Source of the DNA: Sulfurimonas sp.
GTDB lineage: Bacteria > Campylobacterota > Campylobacteria > Campylobacterales > Sulfurimonadaceae
Reading direction: 5' to 3'
Assembly: GCF_028694605.1 (NCBI RefSeq)
Contig: NZ_JAQVKP010000012.1
Span: 1 to 64,000 of the forward strand
Length of the DNA stretch: 64,000 nt
The notes beneath the pieces were generated by a model, which was given only the letters and a program-made list of their open reading frames with translations, did no database searches and was not told the DNA's origin. This document shows positions 160 to 1,640 of this stretch, piece by piece. Within the stretch, counting starts at the first letter, position 1; each line of letters starts with the position of its first letter. Both the position numbers and the translations under genes were made by a program.

Positions 160-888
160 CTATTTTTTAAATAATTGTCTAATTTTTTTCAAATTGTTTA
201 GTTTTTCTATACTCGTCTGAATAATCTCTTTTGCTCTGTTTGCTATATCTAAATACTCATCACCTTGAGGTTCTATCTTTTCAAGTTCAGCATAGTACAA
301 ATCTTCATTAAGAGAATCTAAACTTTCACTCAATTTATCTAAATCTTCATAGCTTATAAATCGAGATTCTACCAAGTCTTTTAAAATATCCTTATTTTTT
401 GAGATGGCAACCGCTAAATCAAAAATATCTCTTGTTAAATTGTCCTCTTTTCTCCACTTGACCTTTTTAGCGATTATATCTTCTACACTCTCATAGTACA
501 GCTCAAAATCAAGCGGTATTACTGTGTTTAAAATAGGTCTGTTTATAATTGCTTCATTGAGTAAAAAATCCACTTTTATATCGTCTTTGGTTTTTAATTG
601 CACATGATTATTCATACCGTCAAATCTGTACTCAGTTTGGTCAAACAGCGTTGTCTCATCTATATACCACTTAGGATTTAAAAAATCAAAAACTTGGGCT
701 TCCGTTACAAAAATATCTATATCAAAAGATTTTCTATGATTAAAATGAAACATTGCCAACGCAGTCCCGCCGCCAAATACCCACCAGTTTTTAAGAGTGA
801 CTTGATTCTCAATACCTTGTATCAATTCATGGTAAACTTTATTTAGTGCCTCTATCTGTATTTTAAAGTTCTTCAAATAGCCACTCAT
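160..888 (-). CDS. Nucleotidyltransferase, AbiEii/AbiGii-toxin-like family
   Basis: ORF with WWVFGGGTALAMFHFNHRKSFDIDIFV (GG..TALA..H.R.S.DID.F pattern) and downstream IIAKKVKWR...RDIFDLA, typical of AbiEii-type NTases. Confidence 0.8.
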   Translation of the reverse strand: MSGYLKNFKIQIEALNKVYHELIQGIENQVTLKNWWVFGGGTALAMFHFNHRKSFDIDIFVTEAQVFDFLNPKWYIDETTLFDQTEYRFDGMNNHVQLKTKDDIKVDFLLNEAIINRPILNTVIPLDFELYYESVEDIIAKKVKWRKEDNLTRDIFDLAVAISKNKDILKDLVESRFISYEDLDKLSESLDSLNEDLYYAELEKIEPQGDEYLDIANRAKEIIQTSIEKLNNLKKIRQLFKK

Positions 889-1435
889 ACTCTTTTATTG
901 CCTTTGCGTTGAACTGATCTAAATAATACTCATATACTCTTTTTATTGCCTTTTTCTTAATACCGTAAAGCTTACAGTACTTAACAACATCTTCATAAGA
1001 GACTTCTCTAAAAAGCGTTGCTATTGCATAGTTGTATTGTTTATCTATTTTAGTTCTTGTAAATATTTCATACAGGTCATTAACTCTATAGTGCATATTC
1101 TTATCACTTATAGAGTTATTGATAGTAGCCAATATCCACTTGGCACTATTTAGCTTCATCTCCTCTTCATTTATTACTTCAAAAGGCTTAATGTCAAAAT
1201 ACCCTTCTTTGTCATTTGCAAGGTCATACTCTAACTGTTTCATTAAAATAAACTCAGGTTTTAGATTGAAAAACTTTGCAAATTTTTTAGCTGTATGGAT
1301 GGTAAAACCTCTTTTGTGTTGATAGAGTTCACTTATGGTTTTTTTACCAATATCAAGCGACTCGCACAATTTATCTTGAGTGATTTTATTTGGATTGATA
1401 TATTTTTCTTTTATAAAGTCTATCGGTGCTATCAT
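863..1435 (-). CDS. HigA-like HTH protein with C-terminal extension; putative antitoxin partner of the NTase
   Basis: N-terminus ITQDKLCESLDIGKKTISELYQHKRGFTIHTAKKFAKFFNLKPEFILMKQLEYDL resembles HigA/VapI XRE antitoxins; overlaps the downstream NTase ORF by 26 bp. Confidence 0.75.
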   Translation of the reverse strand: MIAPIDFIKEKYINPNKITQDKLCESLDIGKKTISELYQHKRGFTIHTAKKFAKFFNLKPEFILMKQLEYDLANDKEGYFDIKPFEVINEEEMKLNSAKWILATINNSISDKNMHYRVNDLYEIFTRTKIDKQYNYAIATLFREVSYEDVVKYCKLYGIKKKAIKRVYEYYLDQFNAKAIKEYEWLFEEL

Positions 1436-1470
1436 AAAGTTATCCCACTACGATAATAAATATTACTTAA

Positions 1471-1495
1471 AATATTATCATATATAGATAATATT
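1471..1495. promoter_or_regulatory. Candidate operator: AATATTATC-N7-GATAATATT palindrome upstream of the HTH/NTase operon
   Basis: Perfect 9-bp inverted repeat with 7-nt spacer, 36 nt upstream of the HTH start; a further GATAATA half-site at 1452-1458. Confidence 0.5.
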
Positions 1496-1640
1496 GTCAA
1501 CTTTATGTGTAGTTATGTATAAATTTTGATGCTCTTGTAGCAGTTAGCCGTGGGCTTTTAGAATACAAAAAGAAAATTACGATAAGGGATTTGAGTAAAT
1601 AAAGATTATTTTTCAAAATAACTAATTTAATAAATAGATA

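Follow-up and report, generated by a model that had tools for sequence, protein, structure and literature searches.

A HigA-type helix-turn-helix protein with a new C-terminal domain, paired with an AbiEii-type nucleotidyltransferase in Sulfurimonas, as a probable toxin-antitoxin module

The gene pair and its nucleotidyltransferase

The locus opens a contig of 90.5 kb from Sulfurimonas sp., and the window analysed here is the whole stretch of its first 64,000 nucleotides; position 1 is the contig end, and the other flank of the module is hidden. The first-pass annotation had described two overlapping minus-strand open reading frames, a helix-turn-helix (HTH) gene followed by a nucleotidyltransferase (NTase) gene, and both are present where it placed them. 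The genes and the parts of the upstream product are as follows.

863-1435, minus strand: proposed antitoxin and autorepressor gene, an open reading frame of 190 aa with an ATG start, encoding a HigA-type HTH and a new C-terminal domain (CTD)
1214-1426, minus strand: HigA/Cro-C1 helix-turn-helix, residues 4-74 (TIGR02607, HTH_19/HTH_26/HTH_3; Foldseek)
866-1180, minus strand: new all-helical CTD, residues 86-190, the proposed NTase neutraliser (no library match; AlphaFold2; NTase linkage)
1091-1120, minus strand: CTD signature loop, N106-x-S108-I109-x5-H115 (alignments of 27 and 34 sequences)
863-888, minus strand: gene overlap of 26 bp, HTH gene first and NTase gene second
160-888, minus strand: AbiEii/DUF1814 NTase gene, the proposed toxin, 242 aa with an ATG start

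Translational coupling across the overlap is expected. The NTase belongs to the AbiEii/DUF1814 family, as it exceeded the Pfam gathering score for AbiEii PF08843 (E=5.5e-14; 53 bits, cut-off 22.5), matched the PADLOC AbiEii model (E=3e-10) and carries motifs I-IV (hGG...DhD, a third acidic residue, the motif III lysine and +DxxD). The stretches GGGTALA...HRKSFDIDIF, KKVKWR and RDIFDL quoted in the first-pass annotation are all present in the sequence, and the motifs map to the following positions.

715-774, minus strand: motifs I/II, G39-G-G-T-A-L ... R52-K-S54-F-D56-I-D58 (sequence and invariance)
568-570, minus strand: third acidic residue D107 in IKVDFLL (invariant in 9 homologues)
463-468, minus strand: motif III lysines K141/K142 in IIAKKVKWR (invariant in 9 homologues)
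418-432, minus strand: motif IV R153-D154-x-x-D157 (RDIFD), the +DxxD pentad (invariant; motif definition PMC3985639)

Residues G39-G40-G41, R52, S54, D56, D58, D107, K141/K142, R153, D154 and D157 are invariant in nine homologues, indicating that no motif with a known part in AbiEii/MenT activity has been lost. Intactness does not by itself imply toxicity, since none could be detected for MenT2 of M. tuberculosis (PMC10435456). S54 occupies the MenT phosphoacceptor position, two residues ahead of the first metal-binding Asp (D56), and S54-F55-D56 is invariant in the nine homologues; the MenT residues compared were T39/D41/D43 of MenT1 and R76/S78 of MenT3 (PMC11375011, PMC10435456). JHP933 of H. 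pylori, an AbiEii-fold NTase (4O8S/4OK0; PMC4125220), belongs to the same superfamily and comes from the same bacterial order, but its third acidic residue is reported as Glu113 (PMC4125220), against Asp here. An identification of our NTase with JHP933 was rejected, as phmmer with a Helicobacter-like member of the NTase subfamily did not find JHP933.

The DNA-binding head and the C-terminal domain

The N-terminus appears to be of HigA type, as proposed earlier. The protein scored 42.2 bits against TIGR02607, just below the equivalog cut-off of 47.7, and the top PDB matches to the predicted fold of the head were HigA structures (Foldseek, E=1.2e-3 upward). The AlphaFold2 model of the full protein, built on the aligned family, reached a pLDDT of 93.9. 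In a first sample of 249 genomes of the order, seven relatives matched along both HTH and CTD with 60-71% identity, one being truncated where its contig stops, and the same full-protein search returned stand-alone relatives of the C-terminal part only. Plasmid and phage matches to the HTH protein were set aside; they mainly covered the HTH, and the plasmid ones were mostly annotated as ordinary HigA.

About 110 unrecognised residues had been assigned to the C-terminus in the first-pass annotation. This part indeed went unrecognised in every library that we tried, but it comprises about 100 residues beginning at about residue 86-92, and residues 75-85 form a linker. Sequence searches with the CTD matched nothing in Pfam, NCBIfam, PADLOC or PDB. 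Modelled alone with the aligned family as input, the CTD was predicted by AlphaFold2 to form six helices (pLDDT 94.7, pTM 0.85), and Foldseek with this predicted model found no relative in the PDB (best E=1.1) and no match among viral models. Weak family matches to BetR (E=0.048), Vezatin, DUF5085, Cmr7 and others were discarded as near chance, scattered and limited to few members. The matches of the CTD profile to potassium-channel and other PDB entries had E>0.1 and were rejected too. CTD matches in a GTPase-like ORF of ~571 aa (L143, E about 5e-5) and its relatives, with no NTase nearby, were judged to be chance. No CTD was confirmed in viral contigs, a weak negative obtained with one short peptide pattern as the query.

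Profile matches to the CTD were found in 41 of 397 genomes of the phylum, a few of them weak and judged to be chance or distant relatives. In a one-genome-per-species collection, the domain occurred in Sulfurimonas, Sulfuricurvum, Arcobacter, Helicobacter cetorum, a Campylobacter, Sulfurospirillaceae and two Desulfobacterales MAGs. Three architectures were observed, nearly always ahead of the NTase gene: proteins of about 190 aa in which the CTD follows a HigA-HTH, proteins of about 127-147 aa in which it follows another short HTH (PSTLxDW...), and the CTD alone (about 79-95 aa). N106, S108, I109, H115 and Y136 are invariant across all of them in the alignments of 27 and 34 sequences, and most of these residues fall in one interhelical loop. 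The CTD thus forms the conserved core of a protein family whose members come from Campylobacterota and from a few MAGs of Desulfobacterota. The hybrid suggested in the first-pass annotation is half right, since the CTD is an independent partner domain, found by itself and with a second kind of HTH too, and the HigA part contributes no more than the DNA-binding/operator portion.

Small proteins are likewise encoded ahead of more distant NTases (L135-L137, L139-L142, L147, L151). Comparison of distant partners with the CTD by hhalign gave E=1.9e-8 (L135-L138, L140-L142), 9e-8 (L151) and 6e-5 (L139/L147), against a minimum of E=0.045 for column-shuffled controls. The CTD family is therefore wider than the profile first showed.

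Linkage, promoter sites and genomic context

All close homologues of the NTase in the 397 genomes of the phylum (28/28, E<1e-80) directly follow a CTD gene with which they share the strand, and 28 of the 36 CTD matches at E<1e-8 in these genomes adjoin an NTase. The two reading frames overlap by 4-53 bp in 36/37 non-redundant pairs, and this repetition of order and overlap places the pairing far beyond chance. The distance matrices of CTD and NTase are correlated (r=0.94, Mantel p=0.0002), a value inflated by common descent, and the linkage is owed partly to the shared ancestry of related pairs. Hence the co-occurrence of the two genes, proposed earlier as a check, was found to be conserved across genomes, and the lack of linkage that was to speak against the module did not appear.

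Among the eight remaining CTD matches, two are followed by a Zeta-type gene (the first copy in G083, and G076) and four were read and are without NTase (the second copy in G083, G291, G294 and G376; the count excludes G257 and G399). Since solitary CTD genes exist, the CTD is not strictly tied to the NTase; those at L056, L057, L059 and L145 are candidates for stand-alone antitoxins (anti-addiction) or remnants. At L039, a gene pair of minimal-nucleotidyltransferase/HEPN-like type (409-1057, plus strand) was observed directly upstream of a HigA-type CTD module, placing two NTase-containing modules side by side. In Helicobacter-like genomes (L047-L050), the NTase that accompanies a CTD-only protein has a C-terminal tail (...DNSNEYTPTPKRRR in L050; L047 2724-3251, minus strand) that matches CtkA residues 299-325 (3akj, phmmer E=8e-7), and in L047 a Fic-like ORF beside the NTase carries a near-identical tail. 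A common C-terminal targeting or export tail on adjoining genes of a mobile region is possible in L047-L050.

The Zeta-type neighbours raise the question of whether the CTD acts on more than one toxin. A Zeta_toxin gene directly follows a CTD-only gene at L021, L044 and L065 (G083, G076 and one Sulfurimonas MAG), where no NTase takes that place; the arrangement thus recurs in two genera and a further MAG (Pfam E=3.8e-21, 2.7e-19). It could make the CTD a general-purpose antitoxin domain against unrelated NTP-using toxins, AbiEii NTases and Zeta kinases alike, a reading that we hold to be improbable. Equally doubtful is its mechanistic form, in which a modular CTD would join different heads and neutralise at least two toxin families, AbiEii and (at a few loci) Zeta, through one shared mode of action on their nucleotide-binding sites. 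Related Zeta genes with a downstream ORF of 61-72 aa, as also seen after the Zeta gene in G083 and G076, are in most of their genomes unaccompanied by a CTD (L124-L130), so that Zeta seems to have a partner of its own, and we regard the Zeta gene as an unlikely true partner of the CTD. Furthermore, the G083 CTD before Zeta is nearly identical to the G057 CTD before an NTase, as expected if recombination replaced the NTase; replacement of the NTase by a second module is a simpler reading than dual specificity. As an observation in its own right, the Zeta_toxin relative with its conserved 61-72-aa downstream ORF is repeated in Campylobacterota, usually without an upstream CTD (L021, L044, L065, L123-L134), and this small ORF is a candidate for an antitoxin gene, in an unusual order relative to the toxin gene.

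Upstream of the HTH gene, a promoter and two operator-like sites were identified, and the stretch downstream of purH is variable within the genus.

1472-1500, minus strand: sigma-70-type promoter, TTGACA (1495-1500), 17 bp, TAATAT (1472-1477), matching at 10/12 positions
1475-1491: operator-like site O1, TTATC-N7-GATAA, between -35 and -10 and overlapping -10
1440-1456: operator-like site O2, TTATC-N7-GATAA, 35 bp away from O1 and lying past -10, ahead of the start codon
1500-1672 (and L159-L164): stretch downstream of purH, a site variable in the genus, holding HtpX/DnaJ, a restriction-type gene or the module

Promoter-like sites are overall not enriched in this AT-rich stretch, and most relatives have the same promoter layout. 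O1 and O2 are the only exact copies of TTATC-N7-GATAA in the 64 kb, with 0.10 expected for a pattern that was chosen after the first repeat had been seen. The repeat is present at the promoter in 13/13 HigA-type loci examined, though the flanks differ, and it is paired 34-35 bp apart in 12 of them; one locus has a single copy with one mismatch. Loci with the other HTH are without the TTATC-N7-GATAA pair, and CGA-N3-TCG abuts the -10 box in 9/11 of their main group. Neither site was found at the CTD-only loci (n=12). The type of site follows the DNA-binding head, a pattern that autoregulation through the head would predict, and we infer that the HTH head autoregulates the operon via conserved, architecture-specific sites.

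The module is patchily distributed within the genus. Near relatives whose purH is 93-96% identical carry no module at this site; behind their purH lie genes for an HtpX-like protease and DnaJ, or other cargo such as a restriction-type gene. The site beside purH thus varies between genomes, and the module looks acquired. CTD-NTase modules have integrases and further mobile or defence genes in their vicinity, and this neighbourhood together with the patchy distribution fits a mobile module. The role in phage defence raised by the first-pass annotation has so far gained no support, given that the short-pattern search of viral contigs yielded no CTD and that PADLOC calls the NTase only. PADLOC found no complete catalogued defence system; it reported AbiEii alone, with no AbiEi or other partner.

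These data bear on whether the HTH protein does no more than regulate transcription of a nucleotidyltransferase that is non-toxic and benefits its host. The operator-like sites at the promoter agree with such a role, and the toxicity of the NTase is itself putative. However, the conserved and co-evolving part of the protein is the CTD, which is also found without a DNA-binding domain and without the site, and both the patchy distribution and the nearness to integrases and mobile or defence genes suit a mobile module; regulation alone is thus unlikely to be the whole function.

Relation to known systems and proposed mode of action

The small domain DUF6922 (PF21956) resembles the CTD in its setting, since it occurs alone or on an XRE HTH and its gene overlaps that of an AbiEii-family NTase, and the partner protein might accordingly belong to the DUF6922 family. 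The same layout is seen in Desulfobacterota-type genomes (L154, L156). Membership is improbable, however: no member tested had a Pfam match to DUF6922, none of 150 Campylobacterota genomes contained it, and no sequence or profile similarity to the CTD was detected. The hhalign comparison (probability 0.4%, E=0.16) fell within the column-shuffled controls, a weak negative with only six DUF6922 sequences; because it gave no support, the partner is not recognisably DUF6922. In a Desulfobacterales sample (L156 776-1917, minus strand), an XRE-type HTH fused to DUF6922 was observed whose gene overlaps an AbiEii-like NTase gene; its partner domain is apparently unrelated.

The closest known layout is that of AbiE (PMC3985639), which shares an AbiEii/DUF1814 NTase with motifs I-IV, an antitoxin gene in first place, overlapping genes, two inverted repeats over the promoter (putative sites here) and a two-domain antitoxin with a DNA-binding head and a neutralising tail (a role that the tail here would share). 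All this would suit an ordinary AbiE system whose AbiEi had diverged past sequence recognition. We disfavour this reading strongly, since the N-terminus here is a HigA Cro/C1 HTH and not a winged helix, the Pfam and PADLOC AbiEi models match neither the protein nor 13 CTDs, and the modelled CTD is all-helical, finds no AbiEi or other structure in the PDB, and also occurs alone or on another HTH. Pfam, PADLOC and fold searches likewise found no AbiEi (winged HTH with an AbiEi C-terminal domain) at the locus, and the ordinary AbiEi C-terminal fold that the first-pass annotation had named as counter-evidence did not emerge. Dy et al. 2014 name the pairs COG5340-COG2253 and COG4861-COG4849 (PMC3985639), of which COG4861 was compared through Pfam and PADLOC only; within the open-access literature, the part of Makarova et al. 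2009 consulted (PMC2701414) does not list an Xre-AbiEii pair.

HigBA has in common with the locus the HigA-type HTH fold and inverted repeats at the promoter, but here no HigB/RelE-fold toxin gene was found within 1-1700, the protein has an extra CTD of about 100 aa, and the partner is an NTase. A decayed HigBA, with an orphan HigA left beside an NTase gene by chance, would account for the head and the missing HigB, but it is refuted in practice by the conserved linkage, as several genera and families of the order retain the whole 190-aa protein, the NTase overlap and the operator-like sites.

The MenAT1 and MenAT3 systems of M. tuberculosis (PMC10435456, PMC11375011) share an AbiEii-homologous NTase, with Ser54 at the position of MenT1 T39 and MenT3 S78, and pair unrelated antitoxins with the same toxin fold; MenA1 is short, like the CTD-only form. 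They differ in that the CTD shows no similarity to MenA1 (8AN5) or MenA3 by PDB sequence searches and Foldseek, MenA3, which has no solved structure, being compared through its AbiEi relatives only. MenT1, MenT3 and MenT4 are tRNA nucleotidyltransferase toxins with antitoxins from unrelated families (PMC10435456, PMC11375011). MenA1 binds its toxin. With MenA1 as with MenA3, the toxin reportedly comes to phosphorylate itself on a Ser/Thr that precedes its first metal-binding Asp by two residues (PMC10435456, PMC11375011).

Thus the module is best read as one whose toxin and layout resemble AbiE/MenAT but whose antitoxin would be of a new family, and it is likely a bicistronic toxin-antitoxin system with an AbiEii/MenT-type toxin and a HigA-HTH autorepressing antitoxin whose CTD would neutralise by toxin binding. 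The under-described toxin-antitoxin-type pair suspected in the first-pass annotation, with its HigA-like head, new CTD and AbiEii-type partner, is upheld at the sequence level, and its linkage is conserved across genomes. In the proposed mechanism, the NTase would most likely, by analogy with its family, attach nucleotides to tRNA acceptor ends and stop translation. The HigA-type HTH may bind the two TTATC-N7-GATAA operators across the promoter and repress the operon, as their conserved, architecture-specific occurrence suggests, and the CTD would bind the NTase toxin and keep it inactive, a role to which the tight linkage, the co-evolution and the stand-alone copies point. Neutralisation by direct binding is assigned to the CTD, with autorepression added by the HTH, because the CTD is the only part always present and forms the whole partner in CTD-only loci. 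Its likeliest point of action would be the active-site loop of the NTase, where it may block the loop or push Ser54 into the bound nucleotide for self-phosphorylation, as in MenA1/MenT1 and MenA3/MenT3.

AbiEii/MenT-type nucleotidyltransferases are widespread toxins, and how one fold is controlled by unrelated antitoxins is an open question. To this the CTD adds an antitoxin family, presumptive in function, for which searches of Pfam, NCBIfam, PADLOC and PDB detected no homologue. The stand-alone CTD of ~83 residues should suit direct structural work by its small size, and since each head is naturally present or absent together with its matching operator-like site, neutralisation is separable from autoregulation and both are testable. 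Annotation tools could recognise pairs that are now seen as a lone AbiEii gene and a hypothetical protein, those of Helicobacter and Arcobacter included.
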